This document shows positions 845 through 61,094 of a stretch of 64,000 bases of DNA, in pieces; the first letter of the stretch is position 1; every line of letters begins with the position of its first letter. A program made the translations under genes and the position numbers. The notes under the pieces are model-generated. The model saw only the letters and a list, made by a program, of their open reading frames with translations. It was not told where the DNA came from and ran no database searches. Source of the stretch: Paraphotobacterium marinum (GTDB taxonomy: Bacteria; Pseudomonadota; Gammaproteobacteria; Enterobacterales; Vibrionaceae); NCBI RefSeq assembly GCF_002216855.1, contig NZ_CP022356.1, positions 744,001-808,000 of the forward strand. The letters are read 5' to 3'.

Positions 845-1058
845 ATACATGTCAAATACTTGGTCTTTATATGTAAAGATATAACATTTTAGTAAGATCA
901 AGTATTGATAATTGTTGCATGCAAAGAGTCTAAAACTTAGGATTATCCTTTTTATACATAAAGTCTCTAAAATTTTTTCATTTCGCTGACCTTAAATTTA
1001 CACTTCATTTACATAACTAACTCTTTTGATAAAAATATGTAAATAAATGTAAATCTAA

Positions 1059-1086
1059 TTGATAAATTTTCTTTTCAAAATAGAAT
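1059..1086 (+). promoter_or_regulatory. Candidate sigma-70 promoter for the His-rich gene cluster
   Basis: TTGATA (1059-1064) and TAGAAT (1081-1086) are separated by 16 bases and lie about 50 bases before the first His-rich gene. The 290-base gap 845-1134 contains no gene that I can see. The assignment is by consensus match only, in an AT-rich background where chance matches are common. Confidence 0.35.
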
Positions 1087-1134: not shown

Positions 1135-1383
1135 ATGAAAAAATCTATTGTTTTGATAAGTTTACTGTCAGTATTTGCAGTTTCTTCTGTTGCAAATGCT
1201 GAAAAAATCAAGTTAGCCGGACCTAATGGCAAAATCGTAATAGGAAATCATGGCGTAAAAATTGTTGGAAATGATTATGATAGACATCACCATCACCATA
1301 GAGAACATGGAAAAACTGTAATAAAAAAAGAACATTGTAATCATCATAAATGTGTAACAAAAAAAGTTGTTAAAAAATATTAA
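1135..1383 (+). CDS. Small secreted His-rich protein with C-terminal CNHHKC motif
   Basis: An 82-residue protein with a clean Sec signal peptide (MKKSIVLISLL... ending VANA, about residues 1-22). The mature part holds a five-histidine run near residues 51-55, and a basic tail with the motif CNHHKC followed by VTKKVVKKY. That tail is nearly identical to the tail of the protein encoded at 1728-1985. Cys and His in this spacing suggest binding of a transition metal in the periplasm, which is inference. An AGGA ribosome site sits about 9 bases before the ATG. It is the first gene of a run of five small secreted genes and ends 15 bases before the next start. I do not recognise a named family. Confidence 0.8.
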   Translation: MKKSIVLISLLSVFAVSSVANAEKIKLAGPNGKIVIGNHGVKIVGNDYDRHHHHHREHGKTVIKKEHCNHHKCVTKKVVKKY

Positions 1384-1398
1384 TTGAGGATAATAAAA

Positions 1399-1626
1399 AT
1401 GAAAAAACTATTAATTTCTTTGGCTGTTATTTCAGCATCAATAATAAGTGCAAATGCTTCTGCAAAACATGTTACTGAGCATGTAAAATATAGATGGCAC
1501 CATGGTGTTCACGAAAGAATTATCGTAAAAAATGTATGTAAGCATCACTATCATCAATGCAAGAAAGTAAAGCGAACTCAATACCTTAATCGTAATTGGC
1601 CAGATAAAGTTGTTGTCATTAAATAA
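1399..1626 (+). CDS. Small secreted Cys/His-rich basic protein
   Basis: A 75-residue protein with a signal peptide (MKKLLISLAVISASIISANA, then SA). The frame is open upstream to a TTG at 1384, but the ATG at 1399 has AGGA 8 bases before it and begins directly with the signal peptide, so I chose it. The mature region carries CKHHYHQC, a longer version of the Cys-x-His-His...Cys motif of its neighbours, and ends in PDKVVVIK, resembling the IVIKN end of the lipoprotein at 2003-2140. It is probably co-transcribed with the gene at 1135. A strong hairpin terminator follows. Metal binding is inferred. Confidence 0.75.
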   Translation: MKKLLISLAVISASIISANASAKHVTEHVKYRWHHGVHERIIVKNVCKHHYHQCKKVKRTQYLNRNWPDKVVVIK

Positions 1627-1646
1627 CTCTTAATCTGAAACCCTAA

Positions 1647-1672
1647 AAAAAGAGCTATGCCAGGCTCTTTTT
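1647..1672 (+). terminator. Rho-independent terminator
   Basis: AAAAAGAGC (1647-1655) pairs with GCTCTTTTT (1664-1672) around an 8-base loop, and the right arm ends in a T run. It closes the first two-gene unit of the His-rich cluster. Confidence 0.8.
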
Positions 1673-1727
1673 AAACCCTAAATTATTTTATTATTCTAGA
1701 CCGTTTTTGCTGTCTTAGGAGGTTCTT

Positions 1728-1985
1728 GTGTTTAAAAAAATTTCAAAAATTATAGTAATTAGCTCGATTTTTGCTGTCATTTCTTCTTCTGCAATGGCTG
1801 ATAGTTTTAAATTTGTATTAAGAGATCATGGAAATAAAATTGCAATTGGTGGTGGTGGACATCATCACAGGCATCATCACAGACATCATCACGATCATTG
1901 GAGACATCACGGCAGAACAGTCGTAAAAAAACAACATTGTAACCACCACAGATGTGTAACTAAAAAAGTCATTAAAAGATACTAA
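1728..1985 (+). CDS. Small secreted His-rich protein, DHGNKIAIG/CNHHRC type
   Basis: An 85-residue protein starting with GTG at 1728; AGGAGG at 1717-1722, five bases upstream, makes this start convincing. The signal peptide ends at SSSAMA, residue 24. The mature protein begins DSFKFVLRDHGNKIAIG, a segment shared with the gene at 2155 and, in its first part, with the gene at 50238-50561 on the other strand. A histidine block (HHHRHHHRHHHDH) and the tail CNHHRCVTKKVIKRY follow; the tail matches the 82-residue protein at 1135. A periplasmic metal-binding or metal-buffering role is inferred from composition. No named family recognised. Confidence 0.8.
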   Translation: MFKKISKIIVISSIFAVISSSAMADSFKFVLRDHGNKIAIGGGGHHHRHHHRHHHDHWRHHGRTVVKKQHCNHHRCVTKKVIKRY

Positions 1986-2002
1986 ATTAGGAATTAGACA
2001 CA

Positions 2003-2140
2003 ATGAAAAATAATTTAATTAAGGGAATCCTTATTTTCGTAGGTATATCTTTTTTGAGCGGTTGTGTGGTTGTGGATAAACGTAATTGTAAACATCATCG
2101 TTGTCACTATCCTCATGGAAAAATTGTTATTAAAAACTAA
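2003..2140 (+). CDS. Tiny lipoprotein (45 residues) with CKHHRC motif
   Basis: A 45-codon gene starting with ATG at 2003. It reads MKNNLIKGILIFVGISFLSG-C, a lipoprotein signal with lipobox LSGC, so the mature lipoprotein is only about 25 residues. The mature part contains NCKHHRCHY and ends in GKIVIKN, echoing the CxHHxC and VVVIK elements of the neighbouring secreted proteins. A weak AGGA site lies about 12 bases upstream. It fills the gap between two clear family members on the same strand, 17 bases after one stop and 14 bases before the next start. That location and the shared motif make it very likely real despite its size. Confidence 0.7.
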   Translation: MKNNLIKGILIFVGISFLSGCVVVDKRNCKHHRCHYPHGKIVIKN

Positions 2141-2154
2141 GTGTAGGAGGTATT

Positions 2155-2721
2155 ATGAAAAAGTTATGTTTAAGTGCAGCCGCAGTTGTTGCTTTATCTA
2201 TCACATTTATAGCGCCTTCTTATGCCGATGGATTTAGATTTGTCTTTCGAGACCATGGTAATAAAATAGCAATTGGTGCTGGTGGCTTTGGTAGGCACCA
2301 CCACGATCATGGGAGACATCACAACGATCATTGGAGACACCATCATGATGATTGGAGATGGCACCACAGGCATCATTGGCATCATGGTGGACATGGTGGA
2401 CATGGCGGACATGGTGGACATGGTGGACATGGTGGACATGGTGGACATGGTGGACATGGTGGACATGGTGGACATGGTGGACATGGTGGACATGGTGGAC
2501 ATAACGGTGGCGGACACAATGGCGGACACAATGGCGGACACAATGGCGGACACAATGGCGGACACAATGGCGGACACAATGGCGGACACAATGGCGGACA
2601 CAATGGCGGACATAATGGTGGACACAATGGCGGACATAATGGTGGACACAATGGAGGACATAACGGTGGACACAACGGCGGCCATGACGGGAAAAAGCCA
2701 AAAAAAATAGTCCAAAATTAA
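2155..2721 (+). CDS. Secreted Gly/His repeat protein
   Basis: A 188-residue protein with a strong ribosome site (TAGGAGG, six bases before ATG) and a signal peptide ending PSYA, residue 24. The mature start DGFRFVFRDHGNKIAIG is shared with the gene at 1728. A His/Asp/Trp-rich stretch (residues about 46-78) follows, then about a dozen HGG triplets and about fourteen HNGG tetrads, and a basic end KKPKKIVQN. Unlike its neighbours it has no CxHxxC motif. Composition suggests polyvalent Zn, Cu or Ni binding outside the cytoplasm, which is inference. The repeats are nearly identical at DNA level, so the array length may vary between isolates. It is the last gene of the cluster. Confidence 0.8.
   Translation: MKKLCLSAAAVVALSITFIAPSYADGFRFVFRDHGNKIAIGAGGFGRHHHDHGRHHNDHWRHHHDDWRWHHRHHWHHGGHGGHGGHGGHGGHGGHGGHGGHGGHGGHGGHGGHGGHNGGGHNGGHNGGHNGGHNGGHNGGHNGGHNGGHNGGHNGGHNGGHNGGHNGGHNGGHNGGHDGKKPKKIVQN
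2385..2682 (+). repeat. Tandem 9-bp and 12-bp repeats within the Gly/His gene
   Basis: Positions 2385-2502 are tandem copies of the 9-mer GGACATGGT (encoding HGG units) with one variant. Positions 2511-2682 are tandem copies of the 12-mer GGCGGACACAAT and close variants (encoding HNGG). Both unit sizes are multiples of three, so copy-number changes would keep the frame. Confidence 0.9.
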
Positions 2722-18228: not shown

Positions 18229-21200
18229 TTAATCTACTAAGTATGGATTTTCATCATCTATATCTGGAATTCCGTCATTATCACTGTCCACATCAAGATG
18301 ATCAGCTAAACCATCTCCATCCGTATCAATTCCTTCACAATAACCAACATCACTCTCATATGATGCCAAAAGCTCAGAATAAGGAACTTGTCCAACAAAA
18401 AATACTGGTGAGCTATGAAGCGTTGAACTATTGGAAGCAGTCCATTCTACTGTATCGCCCTCATTTAAAATCACTGTCGTTGCATAAAACGCATTACCAA
18501 ATCCACTTGTACTATTTGCTAAAACATACAATCTACCAGTTTCGCCCGTTGTAATGTTATTAATTTCAATGTTTCCGTAAGAAAATATTTCATTACCGAT
18601 AAGATTTAATCCTGTAATATCAACAACAGTCTGTTCTCCATCTGTATCTAAAGTTTGAAGGCCACCATTACTTGAGTCAGATAAAATAGGATCATTATCT
18701 TTTATCATAATTGTTGAATAATCTAGATTTTGAATTATCACAGTCTCTGTTGTTCCATTATATCCAAATATATTAGCGCCATTTAAATTTTGTATTAAAT
18801 TGCTTGAGTATATAAGTAGTTCAACTTCACCATCATCATTAAACGACGCATATTTTTTATTAGAGCAACCCTCATCAATATCCAAAATAGTATCATTATC
18901 ATCATCCGTATCTGTATTATCACCAATTCCGTCTCCATCAGTATCTCTAGTTTCACTGGGATCATTCGGGAAATCATCTCCATTATCACCTACACCATCA
19001 CCATCAGTATCAGTTTGTTCCTCAAAATCAAGCGGAAATGCATCACTACTATCTCCTACACCATCTCCATCAGTATCTGAGAACTCAGTGGGATCATAAG
19101 GGAATGCATCCATAAAATCAGGCATACCATCATTATCATCATCATCATCTCCATTATCCCCTATTCCATCATTATCAAAGTCACTACTTTCTGAATTATC
19201 TAACGGAAATAAATCTTCAGCATCTGCTACACCATCATTGTCATCATCTGTATCTGTGTTATTCCCAGTTCCATCACCATCCGTATCGATACTTTCAGAA
19301 TCATCTAATGGGAAGGCATCGTCACTGTCTGCTACGCCATCATCATCATCGTCGCTATCTGCATTATTCCCTGTACCATCGCCATCGGTATCAATACTTT
19401 CTGAGTTATCTAATGGGAAGGCATCGTCATTATCTAATACACCATCATCATCATCGTCGCTATCTGCATTATTCCCTGTACCATCGCCATCGGTATCAAT
19501 ACTTTCTGAATTATCTAATGGGAAAGCATCGTTATTATCTAATACACCATCGTTATCATCATCGGTATCTGCATTATTACCAGTTCCATCACCATCCGTA
19601 TCAATGCTTTCTGAATTATCTAATGGGAAGGCATCGTCATTATCTAGCACACCATCATCATCATCATCGGTGTCTGCATTATTACCAGTTCCATCTCCAT
19701 CCGTATCAATGCTTTCAGCATTATCTAATGGGAAAGCATCCTCGTTATCAGATACACCATCATCATCATCATCGGTGTCTGCATTATTACCAGTTCCATC
19801 TCCATCCGTATCAATGCTTTCAGCATTATCTAATGGGAAAGCATCCTCGTTATCAGACACACCATCATCATCATCATCGGTATCTGCATTATTACCAATA
19901 CCATCACCATCCGTATCAATGCTTTCAGAATTATCTAATGGGAAGGCATCGTCATTATCTAGCACACCATCATTATCATCGTCATTATCTGCGTTATTCC
20001 CAGTTCCATCACCATCGGTGTCTATTGTTTCACTATCATCCAATGGAAGTGCATCTTCGCTATCAAGCACACCATCATCATCATCATCGCTATCTGCATT
20101 ATTACCAATACCATCACCATCCGTATCAATGCTTTCTGAATTATCTAATGGGAAGTCGTCCTCATTGTCTGCTACGCCATCATCATCATCGTCATTATCT
20201 GCGTTATTCCCAGTTCCATCACCATCCGTATCGATACTTTCAGAATCATCTAATGGGAAGGCATCTTCATTATCTAGCACACCATCATCATCATCATCGG
20301 TGTCTGCATTATTCCCTGTACCATCGCCATCGGTATCAATACTTTCTGAATTATCTAATGGGAAAGCATCTTCGCTATCAAGCACACCATCATCATCATC
20401 ATCCGTATCTGCATTATTACCCGTACCATCGCCATCGGTATCAATACTTTCAGAATTATCTAATGGGAAGGCATCGTCATTGTCTGCCACGCCATCATTA
20501 TCATCATCGGTATCTGCATTATTACCAGTTCCATCACCATCCGTATCAATGCTTTCTGAATTATCTAATGGGAAGGCATCGTCATTATCTAGCACACCAT
20601 CATCATCATCATCGGTGTCTGCATTATTACCAGTTCCATCTCCATCCGTATCAATGCTTTCAGCATTATCTAATGGGAAAGCATCCTCGTTATCAGATAC
20701 ACCATCATCATCATCATCGGTGTCTGTATTATTACCAATACCATCAGCATCGGTATCAATGCTTTCAGCATTATCTAATGGGAAAGCATCCTCGTTATCA
20801 GACACACCATCATCATCATCATCGGTATCTGCATTATTACCCGTACCATCGCCATCGGTATCAATGCTTTCTGAATTATCTAATGGGAAGGCATCTTCAT
20901 TGTCTGCCACGCCATCATTATCATCATCGGTATCTGAATTATTACCCGTACCATCACCATCGGTGTCTATTGTTTCACTGTCATCCAATGGAAGCGCATC
21001 TTCGATATCTAGCACACCATCATTATCATCGTCCGTATCTGCATTATTCCCAACACCATCGCCATCGGTATCCGTATTCTCTGAATTATCTAATGGGAAA
21101 GCATCGTTATTATCTAATACACCATCGTTATCATCATCGGTGTCTGTATTATTACCAATACCATCAGCATCGGTATCAATGCTTTCAGAATTATCTAGTG

Positions 21201-24200
21201 GGAAAGCATCCTCATTATCTAGCACACCATCATCATCATCATCATTATCTGCGTTATTCCCAGTTCCATCACCATCGGTGTCGATACTTTCTGAATTATC
21301 TAATGGGAAAGCATCCTCATTATCTAGCACACCATCACCATCATCATCGGTATCTGCATTATTACCAGTTCCATCCCCGTCAGTATCAATGCTTTCAGAA
21401 TTATCTAATGGGAAAGCATCCTCGTTATCAGATACACCATCATCATCATCATCGATGTCTGCATTATTACCAGTTCCATCACCATCCGTATCAATACTTT
21501 CAGCATTATCTAATGGGAAGGCATCGTCATTATCTAGCACACCATCATCATCATCATCGGTGTCTGTATTATTACCTATACCATCTGCATCGGTATCAAT
21601 GCTTTCTGAATTATCTAATGGGAAAGCATCCTCATTATCTAGCACACCATCGTTATCATCGTCCGTATCTGCATTATTCCCAACACCATCACCATCGGTG
21701 TCTATTGTTTCACTATCATCCAATGGAAGCGCATCTTCGATATCTAGCACACCATCATTATCATCATCGGTATCTGCATTATTACCAATACCATCACCAT
21801 CGGTATCAATGCTTTCAGAATTATCTAATGGGAAAGCATCGTCATTATCTAGCACACCATCATTATCATCATCGGTATCTGCAATATTTCCAGTTCCATC
21901 CCCGTCAGTATCAATGCTTTCAGAATTATCCAATGGGAAGGCATCTTCATTATCTAGCACACCATCATCATCATCATCATTATCTGCATTATTACCAACA
22001 CCATCACCATCCGTATCAATACTTTCAGCATTATCTAATGGGAAAGCATCTTCGCTATCAAGCACACCATCATTATCATCATCGGTGTCTGCATTATTAC
22101 CAATACCATCGCCATCGGTATCAATACTTTCAGAATTATCTAATGGGAAAGAATCCTCATTATCGGATATACCATCATCATCATCGTCGGTATCTGCATT
22201 ATTACCAGTTCCATCATTATCTGTATCTGTATCCTCAGTTGCATCTAAAGGAAATGCATCATTATCATCAGCAGTACCATCATTGTCGTCATCGGTATCT
22301 ACATTATTACCAATACCATCACCATCCGTATCAATACTTTCAGAATTATCTAATGGGAAAGCATCGTCATTATCCACTACACCATCATCATCATCGTCAG
22401 TATCTGCATTATTCCCAGTTCCATCATTATCTGTATCTGTATCCTCAGTTGCATCTAAAGGAAATGCATCATTCTCATCAGCAGTACCATCATTGTCATC
22501 ATCGGTATCTGCATTATTACCAGTTCCATCACCATCCGTATCAATGCTTTCAGCATTATCTAATGGGAAAGCATCGTCATTATCTAGCACACCATCATTA
22601 TCATCATCGGTATCTGCATTATTACCCGTACCATCGCCATCGGTATCAATACTTTCTGAATTATCTAATGGGAAGGCATCGTCATTATCTAATACACCAT
22701 CATTATCATCGTCGCTATCTGCATTATTACCTGTACCATCGCCATCGGTATCAATACTTTCTGAATTATCTAATGGGAAAGCATCGTCATTATCTAGCAC
22801 ACCATCATTATCATCATCGGTATCTGCATTATTACCCGTACCATCGCCATCGGTGTCGATACTTTCTGAATTATCTAATGGGAAGGCATCGTCATTATCT
22901 AGCACACCATCATTATCATCATCATTATCTGCGTTATTCCCAGTTCCATCACCATCGGTGTCGATACTTTCTGAATTATCTAATGGGAAGGCATCGTCAT
23001 TATCTAGCACACCATCATCATCATCATCGGTGTCTGTATTATTACCTATACCATCACCATCCGTATCAATGCTTTCTGAATTATCTAATGGGAAGGCATC
23101 GTCATTATCTAGCGCACCATCGTTATCATCGTCCGTATCTGCATTATTCCCAACACCATCACCATCGGTGTCTATTGTTTCACTATCATCCAATGGAAGC
23201 GCATCTTCGATATCTAGCACACCATCATTATCATCATCGGTATCTGCATTATTACCAATACCATCACCATCGGTATCAATGCTTTCAGAATTATCTAATG
23301 GGAAGGCATCGTCATTGTCTGCCACGCCATCACCATCATCATCGGTGTCTGCATTATTACCCGTACCATCGCCATCGGTATCAATACTTTCAGAATTATC
23401 TAATGGGAAGGCATCGTCATTGTCTGCCACGCCATCACCATCATCATCGGTGTCTGCATTATTACCTATACCATCGCCATCGGTATCAATACTTTCAGCA
23501 TTATCTAATGGGAAGGCATCTTCATTATCTAGCACACCATCATCATCATCATCGGTGTCTGCATTATTACCAACACCATCACCATCCGTATCGATACTTT
23601 CAGAATTATCTAATGGGAAGTCATCGTCATTATCTAGCACACCATCACCATCATCATCGGTATCTGCATTATTACCCGTACCATCGCCATCGGTATCAAT
23701 GCTTTCAGAATTATCTAATGGGAAGGCATCGTCATTATCTGCTACGCCATCATCATCATCGTCATTATCTGAGTTATTCCCAGTTCCATCACCATCGGTG
23801 TCGATACTTTCAGAATTATCTAATGGGAAGGCATCTTCATTATCTAGCACGCCATCATTATCATCATCGGTATCTGCATTATTACCCGTACCATCACCAT
23901 CGGTATCAATACTTTCTGAATTATCTAATGGGAAGGCATCTTCATTATCTAGCACGCCATCATTATCATCATCGGTATCTGCATTATTACCCGTACCATC
24001 ACCATCGGTATCAATACTTTCTGAATTATCTAATGGGAAAGCATCTTCATTGTCTGCTACGCCATCACCATCATCATCGGTATCTGCATTATTACCCGTA
24101 CCATCGCCATCGGTATCAATACTTTCAGAATTATCCAAAGGAAATGCATCATCGTCATCGGAGACACCATCATCATCATCGTCCGTATCTGCATTATTAC

Positions 24201-27200
24201 CCGTACCATCGCCATCGGTATCAATACTTTCAGAATTATCTAATGGGAAAGCATCTTCACTATCTGCTACGCCATCATTATCATCATCTGTATCAGCATT
24301 ATTACCAATACCATCACCATCCGTATCAATACTTTCAGTGTTATCTAATCTAAATGCATCATCGTTATCGGAAACACCATCGTTATCATCGTCTGTATCT
24401 GCATTATCCCCTATACCATCACCATCACTATCCAAGGTCTCATTTGCATCAACAGGAAAAAGATCCAATATATCTGAAACTCCATCACCATCATCATCCG
24501 TATCTGCATTATTACCAACACCATCACCATCCGTATCAATGCTTTCAGAATTATCTAATGGGAAGACATCTTCACTGTCAGGTATACCATCATTATCATC
24601 GTCTGTATCTGTATTATTACCAACTCCATCGCCATCGCTATCAATGGATTCATTTGTATCAAGAGGAAATACATCTATACCATCATTAACACCATCATTA
24701 TCACTATCTTCATCTAAATAATTAAATAATCCATCATTGTCTGTATCAATGTCACAACCATTATTATTGTTTTCTTCAGTAGCTATTAAATCCGTGTAAG
24801 GTGCTTGCCCAATATAAAAACTAGGTGATTGAATATCTGGTTTATAATTTGCAGAAGTTAATTTAATACTATCGCCATTTGTAAGAACAATCGTAGAAGC
24901 AAATACATAATTAGATGATGAGGATAAAATATATATACTTCCTGATTCACCTGTTGATAGATTTTCAACCGATGTTCGACCGATACTAGTTATGTAATTA
25001 CCTGAATTTAAATTGGCAATTGTTAAATCATTAACAACATATTGCGTATTAACAATATCATTATCCCTTATTTGCCCATCAGATGTACCACTATCATTAA
25101 GCATGTCATCATCATCGTAAACAACAATAAGCTCTGAAGTCAGAGCACTTAATGTAGTTGTAACTGAACCATTAAAAAATAAAATGTTTGAACCAGTAGT
25201 AATTCCTTGGTAAACAATAAATTCATATTCACCATTTTCATTAGCTGTAGCATATATTGGTCCAGAACTTCCAGTACATTCTTCAGTATCAGTTAAGCCA
25301 TCACCATCATCATCCGTATCGGCATTATCTCCTATTCCATCACTATCTGTATCTGTGTCTTCATTTTGATCTAAAGGAAATGCATCATCAATGTCATTGG
25401 TGCCATCACCATCATCATCGCTATCCGCATTATCACCGGTCCCATCGCTATCGGTATCTGTATCTTCATTTGGATCTAAAGGAAAGACATCATCAGTATC
25501 ATTGGTGCCATCACCATCATCATCATTGTCGGCATTATCACCAGTTCCATCATTATCTGTATCTGTGTCCTCCGTTGGATCTAGTGGGAAAGCATCATCA
25601 CCATCATCTGTCCCATCACCATCATCATCATTGTCGGCATTATCACCAGTACCATCACCATCGGTATCTATATCTTCTGTTGGATCTAAAGGAAATGCGT
25701 CATCTGCATCTGGCGTACCATCATTATCATCATCGGTATCCGTATTATCACCGTCTCCATCATTATCTGTATCTGTGTCCTCCGTTGGATCAAGTGGGAA
25801 TGCATCATTACTATCATCAGTTCCATCTCCATCATCATCGGTATCCGCATTATCACCAGTACCATCACCATCGGTATCTGTGTCCTCCGTTGGATCAAGT
25901 GGGAATGCATCATTACTATCATCAGTTCCATCTCCATCATCATCGGTATCCGCATTATCGCCAGTTCCATCATTATCTGTATCCGTATCTTCATTTGGAT
26001 CTAAAGGAAAGGCATCATTACTATCATTGGTTCCATCACCATCATCATCATTGTCGGCATTATCACCTATTCCGTCGTTATCTGTATCTGTATCTTCAGT
26101 TGGATCTAAAGGAAATGCATCATCATTATCATCTGTTCCATCTCCATCATCATCTGTATCTGTATTATCACCGGTTCCATCGCTATCGGTATCCGTGTCT
26201 TCATTTGGATTTAACGGAAATCCATCTTCAGTATCATCTGTTCCATCTCCATCATCATCGGTATCTGCATTATCACCAGTTCCATCATTATCTGTATCTG
26301 TGTCCTCCGTTGGATCTAGTGGGAAAGCATCATCACTATCATCAGTTCCATCTCCATCATCATCGGTATCCGCATTATCACCAGTACCATCACCATCGGT
26401 ATCGGTATCTTCTGTTGGGTCGAAAGGAAAGACATCATCTCCATCATCTGTTCCATCTCCATCATCATCGGTATCTGCATTATCGCCTGTTCCATCATTA
26501 TCTGTATCCGTATCTTCTGTTGGATCGAAAGGAAATGCATCATCTGTGTCTGGCGTACCATCATTATCATCATCGGTATCTGCATTATCACCAGTTCCAT
26601 CATTATCAGTATCGGTATCTTCATTTGAATCTAAAGGAAATGCATCATCCGCGTCTGGCGTACCGTCATTATCATCATCGGTATCGGCATTATCACCAGC
26701 TCCATCATTATCGGTATCTGTATCTTCATTTGAATCTAAAGGAAATGCGTCATCTGCGTCTGACGTACCATCACCATCAGCATCGGTATCGGCATTATCG
26801 CCCGTGCCATCACCATCGGTATCCGTATCTTCATTTGGATCTAAAGGAAATGCGTCATCTGTATCATCAGTACCATCATTATCATCATCGGTATCGGCAT
26901 TATCGCCTGTTCCATCATTATCCGAATCTGTGTCCTCCGTTGGATCAAGTGGGAATGCATCATTACTATCATCAGTTCCATCTCCATCATCATCGGTATC
27001 TGCATTATCGCCTGTTCCATCATTATCGGTATCCGTATCTTCAGTTGGATCTAGTGGGAAGGCATCATTACTATCATCAGTTCCATCTCCATCATCATCG
27101 GTATCCGCATTATCACCAGTACCATCACCATCGGTATCTGTATCTTCTGTTGGATCGAAAGGAAATGCATCATCCGCATCTGGTGTACCATCATTATCAT

Positions 27201-30200
27201 CATCAGCATCTGCATTATCACCGGTTCCATCATTATCGGTATCCGTATCTTCAGTTAGATCAAGTGGGAATGCATCATCAGTATCGGGCGTACCATCATT
27301 ATCATCATCGGTATCTGCATTATCACCCGTGCCATCACTATCGCTGTCTGTATCTTCTGTTGGATCTAAAGGAAAGGCATCATCTGTATCTTCAGTTCCA
27401 TCACCATCATCATCGGTATCTGCATTATCGCCTGTTCCATCATTATCTGTATCCGTATCTTCTGTTGGATCAAGTGGGAATGCATCGTCTGTATCTGGCG
27501 AACCATCATTATCATCATCGGTATCTGCATTATCACCAGTTCCGTCATTATCGGTATCTGTATCTTCATTTGAATCTAAAGGAAATGCATCATCCGCATC
27601 TGGTGTACTATCATTATCATCATCAGCATCTGCATTATCACCGATTCCATCATTATCCGAATCTGTGTCCTCCGTTGGATCTAGTGGGAAGGCATCATCT
27701 GTATCATCAGTACCATCATTATCATCATCGGTATCTGCATTATCACCGTCTCCATCACTATCGGTATCCGTATCTTCTGTTGGATCGAAAGGAAAGGCAT
27801 CACCCACATCTGGTGTACCATCATTATCATCATCAGCATCTGCATTATCACCGATTCCATCATTATCCGAATCTGTGTCCTCCGTTGGATCTAGTGGGAA
27901 GGCATCATCTGTATCATCATTACCATCATTATCATCATCGGTATCTGCATTATCACCGGTTCCATCATTATCCGTATCTGTATCCTCAGCTGAATCTAAA
28001 GGAAAGGCATCATCAGTATCTGGCGTACCATCATTATCATCATCGGTATCTGCATTATCACCCGTGCCATCACTATCGCTGTCTGTATCTTCTGTTGGAT
28101 CTAAAGGAAATGCATCGTCTGTATCTGGCGAACCATCATTATCATCATCAGTATCTGCATTATCACCGGTTCCATCATTATCGGTATCCGTATCTTCAGT
28201 TGGATCAAGTGGGAATGCATCATCAGTATCGGGCGTACCATCATTATCATCATCGGTATCTGCATTATCACCCGTGCCATCACTATCGCTGTCTGTATCT
28301 TCTGTTGGATCTAAAGGAAAGGCATCATCTGTATCTTCAGTTCCATCACCATCATCATCGGTGTCCGTATTATCACCGGTTCCATCATTATCGGTATCTG
28401 TGTCTTCAGTTGGATCAAGTGGGAATGCATCTTCTGTATCATCTGTTCCATCTCCATCATCATCGGTATCTGCATTATCACCCGTGCCATCACTATCGCT
28501 GTCTGTATCTTCTGTTGGATCGAAAGGAAAGGCATCATCTGTATCTTCAGTTCCATCACCATCATCATCGGTGTCCGTATTATCACCCGTGCCATCACCA
28601 TCGGTATCTGTGTCTTCACTTGGATCAAGTGGGAATGCATCGTCTGTATCTGGCGAACCATCATTATCATCATCGGTATCTGCATTATCACCGTCTCCAT
28701 CATTATCCGTATCTGTATCCTCAGCTGAATCTAAAGGAAATGCATCATCAGTATCGGGCGTACCATCATTATCATCATCGGTATCTGCATTATCACCTGT
28801 TCCATCATTATCAGTGTCGGTGTCTTCACTTGGATCGAAAGGAAAGTCATCTTCAGTATCATCTGTTCCATCTCCATCATCATCGGTGTCCGTATTATCA
28901 CCGGTTCCATCATTATCAGTGTCGGTGTCTTCACTTGGATCAAGTGGGAATGCATCGTCTGTATCTGGCGTACCATCATTATCATCATCGGTATCGGCAT
29001 TATCTCCAGCTCCGTCATTATCGGTATCTGTATCTTCATTTGAATCTAAAGGAAATGCATCATCCGCATCTGGTGTACCATCATTATCATCATCAGTATC
29101 TGCATTATCACCGGTTCCATCATTATCGGTATCCGTATCTTCAGTTGGATCAAGTGGGAATGCATCTTCTGTATCATCTGTTCCATCTCCATCATCATCG
29201 GTATCTGCATTATCACCGGTTCCATCATTATCCGTATCTGTATCCTCAGCTGGATCTAAAGGAAATGCATCATCTGTGTCTGGCGTACCATCATTATCAT
29301 CATCGGTATCTGCATTATCACCCGTGCCATCACTATCGCTGTCTGTATCTTCTGTTGGATCTAGTGGGAAGGCATCGTCTGTATCTGGCGAACCATCATT
29401 ATCATCATCGGTATCTGCATTATCACCTGTTCCATCATTATCGGTATCCGTATCTTCAGTTGGATCTAGTGGGAAGGCATCATTACTATCATCAGTTCCA
29501 TCTCCATCATCATCGGTATCCGCATTATCACCAGTACCATCACTATCGCTGTCTGTATCTTCTGTTGGATCGAAAGGAAAGGCATCATCTGTATCTTCAG
29601 TTCCATCACCATCATCATCGGTATCGGCATTATCACCGATTCCATCATTATCGGTATCCGTGTCTTCACCCGGATTTAAAGGAAATGCATCATCAGTATC
29701 GGGCGTATCATCATTATCATCATCGGTATCTGCATTATCACCCGTGCCATCACCATCGCTGTCTGTATCTTCTGTTGGATCTAAAGGAAAGTCATCTTCA
29801 GTATCATCTGTTCCATCTCCATCATCATCGGTGTCCATATTATCACCGGTTCCATCATTATCAGTGTCGGTGTCTTCACTTGGATCAAGTGGGAATGCAT
29901 CGTCTGTATCTGGCGTACCATCATTATCATCATCGGTATCGGCATTATCACCGATTCCATCATTATCGGTATCTGTATCTTCATTTGAATCTAAAGGAAA
30001 TGCGTCATCTGCGTCTGACGTACCATCACCATCATCATCGGTATCGGCATTATCACCGATTCCGTCATTATCCGAATCTGTGTCTTCACTTGGATCTAAA
30101 GGAAATGCATCATCCGCGTCTGGCGTACCATCATTATCATCATCGGTATCGGCATTATCACCGATTCCGTCATTATCGGTATCCGAGTCTTCACCCGGAT

Positions 30201-33200
30201 TTAAAGGAAATGCATCTTCTGTATCATCAGTACCATCATTATCATCATCGTTGTCGGCATTATCTCCTGTTCCATCATTATCCGTATCTGTGTCTTCACC
30301 CGGATCTAAAGGAAATGCATCTTCTGTATCATCAGTACCGTCATTATCATCATCGGTGTCCGCATTATCGCCTGTTCCATCATTATCCGTGTCGGTGTCT
30401 TCATTTGGATCTAAAGGAAATGCATCATCCGCGTCTGGCGTACCGTCATTATCATCATCGGTATCGGCATTATCACCCGTGCCATCACCATCGGTATCGG
30501 TATCTTCATTTGAATCTAAAGGAAATGCGTCATCTGCATCTGGCATTCCATCACCATCATCATCGGTATCGGCATTATCACCGGTTCCATCATTATCCGT
30601 ATCTGTGTCTTCAGTTGAATCTAAAGGAAAAGCATCATCTGTATCATCAGTACCATCATTATCATCATCGGTATCGCCATTATCACCAGTGCCATCACCA
30701 TCGGTATCTGTATCTTCAGTTGAATCTAAAGGAAATGCGTCATCTGCATCTGGCGTACCGTCATTGTCATCATCGGTATCGGCATTATCTCCTGTTCCAT
30801 CATTATCGGTATCTGTATCTTCAGTTGGATCTAAAGGAAATGTATCATCTGTGTCTATCGTACCATCATTATCATCATCGTTGTCGGCATTATCCCCAGC
30901 TCCATCACCATCAGTATCGGTATCTTCAGTTGAATCTAAAGGAAATGCGTCATCTGCGTCTGGCGTACCATCATTATCATCATCGGTGTCCGCATTATCA
31001 CCGGCTCCATCATTATCGGTATCCGTATCTTCAGTTGAATCTAAAGGAAATGCATCATCTGCGTCTGGCGTACCATCATTATCATCATCGGTATCGGCAT
31101 TATCTCCAGCTCCATCATTATCGGTATCCGTGTCTTCAGTTGAATCTAAAGGGAAGGCATCATCACCATCATCTGTTCCATCCCCATCGTCATCGTTGTC
31201 GGCATCATCACCCGTGCCATCACCATCGGTATCCGTATCTTCAGTTGAATCTAAAGGAAATGCGTCATCTGCGTCTGGCGTACCATCATTATCATCATCG
31301 TTATCCGCATTATCGCCCGTGCCATCACCATCGGTATCCGTATCTTCAGTTGAATCTAAAGGAAATGCGTCATCTGCGTCTGGCGTACCATCATTATCAT
31401 CATCGTTGTCGGCATTATCCCCAGCTCCATCACCATCAGTATCGGTATCTTCAGTTGAATCTAAAGGAAAGGCATCATCTACGTCTGGCGTACCATCATT
31501 ATCATCATCGGTATCGGCATTATCTCCAGCTCCATCATTATCGGTATCCGTGTCTTCAGTTGAATCTAAAGGAAATGCGTCATCTGCGTCTGGCGTTCCG
31601 TCTCCATCATCATCGTTATCCGCATTATCACCGGCTCCATCATTATCCGTATCTGTGTCTTCAGTTGAATCTAAAGGAAATGCATCATCAGCATCTGGGG
31701 TACCATCATTATCATCATCGTTGTCGGTATTATCTCCTGTTCCATCTCCATCGGTATCCGTATCTTCAGTTGAATCTAAAGGAAATGCATCATCAGCATC
31801 TGGGGTACCATCATTGTCATCATCGGTATCGGCATTATCACCGGCTCCATCATTATCGGTATCCGTGTCTTCAGTTGAATCTAAAGGGAAGGCATCATCA
31901 CCATCATCTGTTCCATCCCCATCGTCATCGTTGTCGGCATTATCACCCGTGCCATCACCATCGGTATCCGTATCTTCAGTTGAATCTAAAGGAAATGCGT
32001 CATCTGCGTCTGGCGTTCCGTCTCCATCATCATCGTTGTCGGCATTATCACCCGTGCCATCACCATCGGTATCTGTGTCTTCAGTTGAATCTAAAGGAAA
32101 TCCATCATCAGCATCTGGGGTACCATCATTATCATCATCGTTGTCGGTATTATCTCCTGTTCCATCTCCATCGGTATCTGTGTCTTCAGTTGAATCTAAA
32201 GGAAATGCATCATCAGCATCTGGGGTACCATCATTGTCATCATCGGTATCTGCATTATCACCGGCTCCATCATTATCGGTATCTGTATCTTCAGTTGGAT
32301 CTAAAGGAAATGCATCATCTGTATCATCAGTGCCATCTCCATCATCATCGTTGTCGGTATTATCTCCTGTTCCATCACCATCGGTATCGGTATCTTCATC
32401 CTGATCTAAAGGAAATGCATCATCTGTGTCTGGCGTACCGTCATTGTCATCATCGGTATCTGCATTATCTCCTGTTCCATCATTATCGGTATCTGTATCT
32501 TCAGTTGAATCAAGTGGGAAGGCATCATCTGTATCATCAGTGCCATCATTATCATCATCGTTGTCGGTATTATCTCCTGTTCCATCACCATCGTTATCTG
32601 TGTCTTCAGTTGAATCTAAAGGGAAGGCATCATCACCATCATCTGTTCCATCCCCATCGTCATCGTTGTCGGCATTATCACCCGTGCCATCACCATCGGT
32701 ATCCGTATCTTCAGTTGAATCTAAAGGAAATGCGTCATCTGCGTCTGGCGTTCCGTCTCCATCATCATCGTTATCCGCATTATCACCGGCTCCATCATTA
32801 TCGGTGTCGGTATCTTCATCTGAATTTAATGGAAATGCATCATCTGCGTCTGGTGTTCCATCATTATCATCATCGTTATCCGCATTATCGCCTGTACCAT
32901 CACCATCGGTATCCGTATCTTCAGTTGAATCTAAAGGAAATGCGTCATCTGCGTCTGGCGTTCCGTCTCCATCATCATCGTTATCCGCATTATCACCGGC
33001 TCCATCATTATCCGTATCTGTGTCTTCAGTTGAATCTAAAGGAAATGCATCATCAGCATCTGGGGTACCATCATTATCATCATCGTTGTCGGTATTATCT
33101 CCTGTTCCATCACCATCGGTATCTGTATCTTCATCCGGATCTAAAGGAAATGCATCATCCGCGTCCTGCGTACCATCATTATCATCATCGGTATCTGCAT

Positions 33201-48931: not shown

Positions 48932-49744
48932 ATGCTTAATTTCCCCAATATAGATCCTGTTGCTCTCTCCATAGGGCCAATACATATTTACTGGTATGCC
49001 ATAATGTACATATCAGGGTATGGTCTTGCATCTATGTTTTTAAAAATGCGTATAAAAAAGTATAATTTACCTTGGAAAAAAGACCAACTTGAAAATTTAA
49101 CTTTATTTATTGGTATTGGCTGTATACTTGGTGGTAGGCTTGGCTATGTTTTATTTTATAACTTACCTTTTTATTCAAATAACCCATTACAAATTTTCCA
49201 AATATGGCATGGAGGAATGTCTTATCATGGAGGTATGATAGGAGTTTTATTGGCTATATTTATTTATGGAAAAAAATATAATAGAAGTTTTTTTTCAATA
49301 TCTGACTTTATTGCACCTGCTATTCCAATCGGGTTAGCTCTCGGAAGAATAGGAAATTTTCTAGGTGCGCAATTGTATGGCAAAACGACTTCATTACCCT
49401 GGGGAATGATCTTTCCAAATGCAGGGCCATTACCTAGACACCCAAGCCAAATTTATGAATTTTTACTGGAAGGTGTTTTACTTTTTATTATTTTAGCATC
49501 CTTATCCCGTAAGAGTCGAGCTCCTATGTATCTTTCTGGTATGTTTATGGTTTTTTATTCAATATTTAGATTTATAAGCGAATTTTTTAGAGAACCTGAT
49601 CCACAGATTGGTTATCTCGCATGGAATTGGTTGACAATGGGACAAGTGCTATCAATACCAATGTTCATAATTGGAATAGTATTAATTTTTAAATCATATA
49701 CCTTTGAAAAAAAAGATGTAGTTTTAGATCTAAGCAGAAATTAA
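48932..49744 (+). CDS. lgt: Phosphatidylglycerol:prolipoprotein diacylglyceryl transferase
   Basis: A 270-residue inner-membrane enzyme that attaches diacylglycerol to the lipobox Cys of prolipoproteins. It has seven predicted helices. Signature segments are IHIYWYAIMYISGY, the H in WHGGMSYHGGMIG, the Lgt signature LGRIGNFLGAQLYGKTTSLPWGMIF, and HPSQIYEFLLEGV. It would process the lipoproteins encoded in this window, including the giant repeat protein, the DsbA-like protein and the cystatin-like protein. A single gene, with a start having AGGA upstream. The call is firm. Confidence 0.96.
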   Translation: MLNFPNIDPVALSIGPIHIYWYAIMYISGYGLASMFLKMRIKKYNLPWKKDQLENLTLFIGIGCILGGRLGYVLFYNLPFYSNNPLQIFQIWHGGMSYHGGMIGVLLAIFIYGKKYNRSFFSISDFIAPAIPIGLALGRIGNFLGAQLYGKTTSLPWGMIFPNAGPLPRHPSQIYEFLLEGVLLFIILASLSRKSRAPMYLSGMFMVFYSIFRFISEFFREPDPQIGYLAWNWLTMGQVLSIPMFIIGIVLIFKSYTFEKKDVVLDLSRN

Positions 49745-49751
49745 GTGCTCC

Positions 49752-50147
49752 TTAATTTTTTGCAGCCAAATATAATTTTTGTAAAATGGGACAATCTTTA
49801 GTCTCCATTTTACCATCACAAGCCCTATCAAGCTCGGAAAGAACGTACTCTAAACTTTTTAATTTTGAAATCTTTTCTTTAATTTTATGTTGTTGCTTTT
49901 GAATTTTATTTTTAATTTGGTAACTACCCGACTCTAAAAGTTCTAAATTAAAAAAATCTCTAATCTCTTTTAAATCAAAACCTAAGTTTTGGGCATTCTT
50001 AATAAAAATAATTCTTTGTTTAGCTTCTTCATTAAAATACCTGTAACCATTTCCTTGACGTATAGATTGAATTAAATTCATATTTTCATAATATCTTATA
50101 GCCACCTTAGATACATTTGTTTGCTTTGATAATTCGCCTATATTCAT
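49752..50147 (-). CDS. MerR-family metal-responsive regulator (ZntR/CadR-like)
   Basis: A 131-residue regulator with the MerR helix-turn-helix at the start (MNIGELSKQTNVSKVAIRYY, then GNGYRYFNEEA), a long dimerisation helix, and a C-terminal metal-binding loop CDGKMETKDCPIL with two Cys. This C-terminal pattern is typical of Zn/Cd/Pb-responsive MerR proteins rather than CueR. It is transcribed in the same direction as the His-rich gene just upstream (50238-50561) and could control it or act on a distant exporter. It is convergent with lgt. Confidence 0.85.
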   Translation of the reverse strand: MNIGELSKQTNVSKVAIRYYENMNLIQSIRQGNGYRYFNEEAKQRIIFIKNAQNLGFDLKEIRDFFNLELLESGSYQIKNKIQKQQHKIKEKISKLKSLEYVLSELDRACDGKMETKDCPILQKLYLAAKN

Positions 50148-59006: not shown

Positions 59007-59666
59007 TTAAGGCTTCATTCGATAACCTACACCTCTTAAAGTTTCTATTTCAATACCAGGTAGTTTTTGTCTCAATTGTAGTATGTGTGTATCTACTGTT
59101 CTAGTCGTCGGATAATGGTTGTACCCCCAAACTTGATCAAGTAATTCATCTCTAGTAAAAACTCTACCAATACTTTTTGATAAGAAAACTAATAAATCAA
59201 ATTCAGTTCGAGTTAATATTATTAACTTTCCATCAATTTCAACCTCTCTACTTTCAAGCAGAATGGTTATATTATCATTAATTTTTATATTATTTTTAAC
59301 TTCTTGATCTTGATTAGTACGAAGTTGTGCCCTAATCCTAGCTAAGAGTTCTTCTTCAACAAAAGGCTTTGTTAAATAATCATTTGCTCCACTATCAAGT
59401 CCTTCTATTTTATTTCCAACAGAAACCATTGCTGTGAGCATAATAATTGGAATTTGTTTAATTTTTTTCCAATTTTTAATAAATTCTTTCGAATCACCTT
59501 CTGGCAGTTGTCTGTCTAACACAACCAAATCTGCATTTTTCCATTTAGATTCTACTTGAGATGCACAATTCGCGTATAAACAATCATATCCAGAGGATGT
59601 TAAAATGTTTTTTAAACCTTCAGCAAGATTTTGATCATCTTCTACCAACAGTATCGTTTGATTCAC
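59007..59666 (-). CDS. vxrB: VxrB-like OmpR-family response regulator
   Basis: A 219-residue response regulator. The receiver has acidic pocket LVEDDQ, phosphoacceptor Asp51 (VVLDRQLPEGD) and conserved Lys in YLTKPF. The C-terminal OmpR winged helix includes LTRTEFDLLVFLSKSIGRVF and VDTHILQLRQKLPG. The start is a GTG at 59666 with GGAG seven bases upstream; it overlaps the end of vxrA by 32 bases, indicating translational coupling. It would activate an envelope-stress or cell-wall regulon, as VxrB does in Vibrio. Confidence 0.88.
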   Translation of the reverse strand: MNQTILLVEDDQNLAEGLKNILTSSGYDCLYANCASQVESKWKNADLVVLDRQLPEGDSKEFIKNWKKIKQIPIIMLTAMVSVGNKIEGLDSGANDYLTKPFVEEELLARIRAQLRTNQDQEVKNNIKINDNITILLESREVEIDGKLIILTRTEFDLLVFLSKSIGRVFTRDELLDQVWGYNHYPTTRTVDTHILQLRQKLPGIEIETLRGVGYRMKP

Positions 59667-61094
59667 AAGGTATCTCCATTATAAACGTTGTAGGTGGCCC
59701 TTCTAATCTCAAAGTGCCCCCCATTTTTTTTATCATTGACTCAACAATAGTTAAGCCTAAACCTAAACCACTTTTACTTTCAAATGGCTTTTTTAGTCTG
59801 CTCCAATCAGATGACTTCAAATTTCCCTGATCGATAATTTTAATTACAAGCTGTCCAGACTCAACACTAGAATATAGCTCAATAGGAGCCACTCCATATT
59901 TAGTTGCATTTGATAATAAGTTATCAATACAAGTGCCCAACCAGTAAACATTTAAAAAGACTTTAGTATCTTTATTGGTGTGCATATTAACATTATATGA
60001 CTCACAAATATAGGATAACCAAGAATTTAAAGATTCAAGTTCGCTAACTTTCATTTGTCCTTGATTTGCTAACAAATAGTCTTTACTTGCTTCTGCAAGC
60101 TGCCTCAGACGCCTACTATCCTCACATAAACGTCTAAACTCATCATAAAGAGAGTCAGGCAGCTTATCAAATGATTTCCTAAATCCTTCAACTGTCATAC
60201 CTAAACTTGCTATCGGTGTTCTAAGTTCATGAGTCAAGATTTGTAGTATGAGCATCCTTTCATTAAGAATTTTTCTATGCTCTATCCATCTTGAAATAAT
60301 CCAAGCAAAAATGATAGTGAAATTTAAAATGATTAATATTATGAATAAATACCAAGTAAATTTATCTTTGTTTTCGACTTTATTTATACATACATTTCCT
60401 AATTTCTCTAAACAAAATACATTGTTTTTTCTCGTAGAGATATTTAAACCAAGTTCATCAGCTATTTTTTTCCATGAATTCTTTGGGTAAACAGAATAAA
60501 ATTGATTGCTTTTAAACCATAAGTATTGTCCCGATAATATCAAAGGTGTTCCTGTAACCAAATTTTCAATGGCTGTTTCATTCATTCTTTGTAGCTGGCC
60601 TAGTTCTGTTAATATACCTGACTTACTTCTTTCACGAATATGCAAAAATCTTTCATACTTTTTCTTTTCTTTAGGATATTTTTCAATATATCGTTTTGCA
60701 TATGAACCTCCACCTGGATGAATATAGTTTGCGCGAGAAAACCAACTTGGAGGTAATTTAAGATTAAGACACATCGCTCGTGTAAACACTAAGGGTTGTA
60801 ATAGCCTGGGATCTACAGTTTTATCACCTTTACAATCACTTTTATAAAATTTATATAATTTTTGTAATTCTTTAATATTATAACTTGATGTTTGTGGTAG
60901 GAGTTTTGAAGGCAATAAAAGCTGTTCTGGGTAGCGGGATAAAATATGTTGTAATGAAAATTTTCTAACTGGTTTAACAATTAATAATTTTTCTCTAAAG
61001 GCAATAATCTTTTGAGATATATCTTCCGAAATAGCTTTAAAAGTAAAAAAAATTAAAAAAAAACAAGACTTTTTAATAAAAAATTATGTCTCAC
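59635..61094 (-). CDS. vxrA: VxrA-like sensor histidine kinase, start displaced by a -1 frameshift
   Basis: The conserved coding begins well before the first usable start of the continuous frame (TTG at 60915): upstream residues KAISEDISQKIIAFREKLL...LSRYPEQLLLPSKLL belong to the DUF3404-like sensor. Adding one T to the nine-T run at 61055-61063 connects this to a GTG at 61094 and creates a signal peptide MRHNFLLKSLVFFLIFFTFKA, giving about 486 residues. The order is signal, periplasmic sensor (to about 250), one membrane helix (WYLFIILIILNFTIIFAWII), and HisKA with LTHELRTPIASLG, then an ATPase with N box (NLLSNATKYG) and GLGLGLTIV. In Vibrio, VxrA senses cell-wall damage and controls wall repair and T6SS. 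Confidence 0.82.

Follow-up and report, generated by a model that had tools for sequence, protein, structure and literature searches.

In the genome of Paraphotobacterium marinum, no fewer than 15 genes at eight places make up a set that encodes very small proteins, and by its export signal every member of the set is a short secreted protein or a lipoprotein. On balance, we favour the reading that these are lineage-restricted, duplicated cationic envelope proteins, which belong to a Cpx-type stress regulon and contain a disulfide-stapled hairpin. CpxR-type control of the set, taken alone, is the part of this reading that we consider likely, while the molecular function of the proteins is inferred.

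P. marinum NSCS20N07D has a genome of 2,593,992 bp, at publication the smallest complete one of the Vibrionaceae and available as a PacBio assembly (PMC5649133). It includes contigs of 1,426,504 and 1,161,949 bp. The window, meaning the whole stretch of 64,000 bp that was analysed, corresponds to positions 744001-808000 of chromosome II (C2) and holds six of the genes; its cluster at 1135-2721 is the largest locus of the P. marinum set. The nine additional genes are related to the six of the window or look like them (Table 1).

Table 1. Features of the gene set; positions refer to the window unless preceded by C1 or C2 (chromosome I or II)
Feature	Position	Strand	Description
CpxR-type box	1039..1053	+	GTAAATAAATGTAAA; starts 96 bp 5' of the first ATG and ends 5 bp 5' of the predicted -35
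Promoter-like hexamers	1059-1064 and 1081-1086		Predicted; such hexamers are not above shuffled background
P0001	1135..1383	+	82 aa, Sec signal peptide, His run, basic hairpin, CNHHKC; subfamily C
P0002	1399..1626	+	75 aa from ATG, Sec signal peptide, CKHHYHQC, tail YLNRNWPDKVV; subfamily A
Stem-loop	1647..1672	+	Lies between P0002 and P0003; probably a terminator or an attenuator; -11.3 kcal/mol, z -3.7
P0003	1728..1985	+	85 aa, GTG start, AGGAGG ribosome-binding site 5', head DSFKFVLRDHGNKIAIG, His-rich middle, CNHHRC hairpin; subfamily C
P0004	2003..2140	+	45 aa lipoprotein, LSGC lipobox, CKHHRC
P0005	2155..2721	+	188 aa, head DGFRFVFRDHGNKIAIG, GGH/NGGH repeats, mature part without Cys
P0006	50238..50561	-	107 aa, signal peptide, head DSFRFVIKDHG, GGWRHH repeats, CRHGYC
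P0007 and lipoprotein P0008	C2:292501-292991		Subfamily A, relatives of P0002
P0009 and lipoprotein P0010	C1:1353426-1353910		Subfamily A, relatives of P0002; P0009 frameshifted at an A-rich run (L013 7427-7640)
P0013	C2:294473-294709	-	Subfamily B
P0014	C2:590.9 kb		Subfamily B; located via the promoter box; frameshift in an A-run at its start (L031 1577-1838)
P0012	C2:594.8 kb		Subfamily B; located via the promoter box
P0018 and P0019	C2:1151.2-1151.6 kb		Tandem pair, subfamily D; recovered by the hairpin profile

Organization of the window cluster

The cluster is made up of two tight gene groups, P0001-P0002 (15 bp gap) and P0003-P0004-P0005 (gaps of 17 and 14 bp), separated by 101 bp that hold the stem-loop, which a simple terminator scan did not list. 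The open reading frames that the first-pass annotation had named at 1135, 1399, 1728, 2003 and 50238 all exist and have signal peptides, and the 45-residue lipoprotein reported among them is P0004, as its lipobox confirms. P0001 and P0003 are 49% identical, and P0002 has paralogues on both chromosomes. The head DSF(K/R)FVxxDHGNKIAIG, described as shared by three of the proteins, is exact in P0003 alone; P0005 has one change and the head of P0006 is shortened. P0005 and P0006 are tied to subfamily C through this head and not through the hairpin, and the Cys segments of P0004 and P0006 are only weakly similar to the rest (z 1.8-2.4 for P0004 against subfamily C).

In P0005, tandem repeats occupy 2383-2681 (9 bp x 13.3, encoding GGH; 12 bp x 14.5, encoding NGGH) and are likely to vary in length among strains. 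As for the surroundings, an ACR3 arsenite pump is encoded some 1.3 kb ahead of P0001, immediately beyond the window edge (L014 5021-5821). A MerR-family regulator gene follows P0006 directly on the same strand (49752-50147, minus strand; its best NCBIfam model is CueR, below cut-off), with lgt (48932-49744) on its far side. An open reading frame of 5776 aa at 18229-35559 (minus strand), with a G+C content of about 0.40-0.44 against about 0.29 around it, probably encodes a giant surface protein.

Paralogues and subfamilies

A profile of the hairpin alone (A6), run against the genome, recovered all ten known hairpins at E<=6.4e-7 plus one new place, that of P0018/P0019. In the paralogue alignments the two Cys are the sole invariant residues, and similarity between subfamilies was expressed as z-scores from shuffles in which the Cys were held fixed. 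By this measure subfamily D resembles subfamily C (z 3.3-4.7) and subfamily A (z 2.7-4.6), while A against C and B against C are not clearly above the shuffles. Profile comparison gave E-values of 1.8e-6 for A-D and 2.6e-5 for C-D. Since the Cys-fixed shuffles and the profile comparisons agree, homology via the hairpin is probable for subfamilies A, C and D. Subfamily B (P0012, P0013 and P0014) is only weakly linked to D in the profile comparison (hhalign probability 27%), and has its layout and promoter box in common with the others. The interval between P0014 and P0012 (C2:591332-594702; L042 7333-10703) encodes an ArsC-ArsH fusion, a thioredoxin reductase (trxB) and ArsR.

None of the set members searched matched a Pfam or NCBIfam model above the curated cut-off, and profile searches thus assigned them to no described family there. 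Together with the several tandem gene pairs and the profiles that join three subfamilies, this upholds the proposal of an undescribed envelope family that diversified by duplication. The surface attachment protein Sap1 (NF046013) was rejected as a relative of P0001: the likeness is a weak score over most of the protein (19.7 bits against a cut-off of 125), without support from parts of P0001 or from its paralogues.

The Cys pair and the predicted hairpin

A Cys pair is present in 14 of the 15 members, mostly within a basic segment, with 4, 5 or 6 residues between the two Cys, and the Cys-bearing mature parts contain 6-18 Lys plus Arg versus 1-8 Asp plus Glu. The proteins had been described as short, secreted and His-rich, with Cys-x-His-x-x-Cys as their common trait. 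Secretion holds throughout, but His residues do not define the set, as five of the 14 Cys loops are His-free (CSPDGYC, CWDDYC, CWKGKC, CTRGNGC and CSYGNC). Specifically, His makes up 8-27% of the mature part in nine or ten members and 2-8% in subfamily A with the exception of P0002 (14%), and it falls to just 2-3% in P0007, P0008 and P0010. The motif itself recurs above chance in its carriers (composition alone yields it in about 0.6-0.8% of shuffles per carrier, and in 3.6% for the 45-mer P0004) but is absent from P0002, whose longer loop departs from it.

AlphaFold, given P0003 with P0001 as a second row, predicted strands at residues 63-71 and 76-84, whose inner ends, flanking the turn, are Cys71 and Cys76; the block that holds the turn has a mean pLDDT of 86 and the remainder is low. 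The model of P0002 alone has strands at 24-34, 37-48 and 53-64, and its turn at 49-52 is bracketed by Cys47 and Cys54. These models were built from one- or two-sequence input (mean pLDDT 69 and 58), and therefore count as support only. Foldseek found no PDB structure that matched the P0002 model at E<=0.001, and searching the PDB sequences with the hairpin profile yielded no useful match.

Because AlphaFold puts the Cys across a beta-hairpin turn, the models agree better with a disulfide hairpin than with a C-x-H-x-x-C metal site, and the simplest reading of two Cys paired across a turn in an exported protein is a disulfide. The earlier proposal, by which the set would consist of envelope metal binders or metallochaperones chelating Cu, Zn or Ni through the Cys-x-His-x-x-Cys site and the His runs, is in our judgement unlikely. 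It would account for the high His content of nine or ten members, and two neighbourhoods are suggestive in its favour, namely the MerR-family regulator gene after P0006 and the arsenic operon (arsR, ArsC-ArsH fusion, trxB) flanked by P0012 and P0014; moreover, Cpx answers to metals in other species. Against it, the His of the loop is not conserved among paralogues, in which Cys alone rather than Cys plus His ligands is invariant; the loop varies in length from 4 to 6 and its Cys flank a predicted beta-turn; three members have just 2-3% His; and no model of a metal-protein family was matched above cut-off. Metal binding through the Cys motif is thus not supported. The metal idea survives mainly as an extra property of the His-rich members, in that the His-rich segments of about half of the proteins could bind metal apart from the Cys motif.

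A CpxR-type box upstream of five units

The CpxR consensus is GTAAA-N5-GTAAA (PMC9600279, PMC12802237), and the box upstream of P0001, GTAAATAAATGTAAA, matches it exactly. Five units, those of P0001, P0009, P0012, P0013 and P0014, have a perfect copy on the coding strand at a near-fixed promoter distance, 76-96 bp from the start codon; the positions of the copies in the five units are -96, -80, -80, -81 and -76. The pattern occurs at 23 sites genome-wide versus 29 for the reversed control, and therefore it is not enriched overall. By our reading, all but one of the sites located at promoter distance in apparently non-coding DNA are these five, the other one preceding a gene of the enolase superfamily (L040). 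Six units had been known ahead of the scan, and three of them carry the box; at the genome-wide rate this has a P value of about 3e-8 or less, a value that covers only these three previously known units, as P0012 and P0014 were found because of the box. A perfect box is absent from four of the nine presumed units, P0003 (if separate), P0006, P0007 and P0018.

A CpxR orthologue is encoded at C1:501574-502269. It shares 52% identity with E. coli CpxR, from which its recognition helix hardly differs; its top NCBIfam model is NF008199, which it matches at 283 bits, below the curated cut-off of 341, and its gene adjoins fieF, as in E. coli. The next gene, cpxA, is split over two frames in the assembly (L056 3149-4176); slippage or errors of the PacBio assembly may explain the frameshifts in cpxA, P0009 and P0014, two of which fall at A-runs. 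The search found cpxR itself to lack an upstream box, and tblastn with E. coli CpxP gave no match in the cpx stretch examined.

The GTAAA repeats might instead be read by another OmpR-family regulator, which we regard as quite unlikely. Eight more response-regulator-like loci did emerge from the CpxR search, including vxrB in the window (59007-59666), yet the repeat matches what is known as the CpxR consensus, and P. marinum CpxR has nearly the recognition helix of its E. coli orthologue. VxrB was judged an unlikely reader of the box, given that its reported motif, TTGACAAAA-N2-TTGAC (PMC7695739), differs. The vxrB gene is part of a VxrA/VxrB-like two-component system at 59007-60915 (minus strand), where the VxrA model scores 600 bits against a cut-off of 750.

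Distribution among other genomes

Among 369 Gammaproteobacteria no relative of subfamily C was found, and for subfamily A just one marginal match (genome G271), which was rejected as not being a clear family member; P0003 had no convincing relative in the 60 related genomes searched. Subfamily B gave only marginal matches outside P. marinum in 247 Vibrionaceae, of which two covered no more than the profile's signal-peptide end, and subfamily D was found in no other genome of a 395-genome sample of the order. Likewise, the GTDB genome collection searched held no relatives of subfamilies A and C, viral contigs none of A, C and D, plasmids none of P0003, P0007 and P0021, and phages none of P0019.

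With a combined C+D profile, two other Vibrionaceae genomes, both of one genus, proved to encode a lipoprotein with about 70% identity to P0019; degraded tandem hairpin copies adjoin it and the CpxR box is absent at the gene. In these genomes (L082, L083), the relatives of P0018/P0019 lie near a gene for an outer-membrane beta-barrel-like protein. Since the sample searches gave close relatives in just these two genomes, the set appears nearly confined to P. marinum within the samples searched, which are not exhaustive.

Proposed role in the envelope

According to the reading that we favour, envelope stress would lead CpxR, or a response regulator of equal specificity, to switch the genes on. 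The Cpx response of Gammaproteobacteria has salinity, low iron and aberrant disulfides among its signals (PMC10225521). In the oxidising periplasm the Cys pair would form a disulfide and staple the hairpin, and the cationic hairpins would then sit at an anionic envelope surface, be it LPS, peptidoglycan or the outer membrane. There the proteins, some of them lipid-anchored, would protect or stabilise that surface, and the His-rich segments of some members would add metal buffering.

We consider it improbable, and hold it to be the weakest of the readings discussed here, that the proteins serve as secreted antimicrobial or adhesive peptides of the cationic beta-hairpin kind, acting on competitors or surfaces instead of the cell's own envelope. 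The members are indeed small and cationic, with one Cys pair across a predicted turn, a layout that recalls known disulfide-closed beta-hairpin antimicrobial peptides (a lead only), and their genes are lineage-restricted and duplicated. However, P0004, P0008 and P0010, at the least, look like lipoproteins and would for that reason remain in the envelope, and no obvious immunity or dedicated export genes stand beside the loci read. Nor do the database comparisons speak for such peptides, as the Sap1 match vanishes with parts of P0001 and the hairpin profile retrieved no PDB sequence.

A bolder version of the envelope-protein reading, which we offer as a tentative one, is that one of the smallest Vibrionaceae genomes has a Cpx response wired mainly, as far as promoters with a perfect box are concerned, to duplicated, disulfide-stapled cationic hairpin proteins. 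These would represent a new type of envelope-stress effector, with metal-buffering His arms gained or lost as modules.

In conclusion, a family without a Pfam or NCBIfam model gains a candidate regulator, by which 15 small proteins of unknown function become a testable regulon. In addition, the case illustrates how a Cys/His motif that looks conserved can have the structural role of a staple, and how a pelagic species of the Vibrionaceae, for all its streamlining, devotes many genes to small envelope proteins that are near-absent from its sampled relatives.

Comparison with known systems

The proposed regulon resembles the Cpx regulon (CpxRA of E. coli and Vibrio) in the CpxR orthologue encoded beside fieF, the promoter box and the small envelope products; it differs in that the P. 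marinum genes match no searched family and that cpxR is without a box of its own. Proteins of the CpxP/Spy/ZraP, RcnB and SilE/PcoE types are, like this set, small, exported, linked to stress or metals and often His-rich. The set is distinguished from them by its predicted beta-hairpin, in contrast to the helical CpxP/Spy fold, as well as by the Cys pair, the high Lys plus Arg content and the lack of a Pfam or NCBIfam match. Thanatin-like disulfide-closed cationic beta-hairpin peptides combine basic strands with a single Cys pair at a short turn, as the set does. Unlike these peptides, the P. marinum proteins have no sequence relative in the PDB, include some lipid-anchored members and carry the hairpin inside a larger exported protein.
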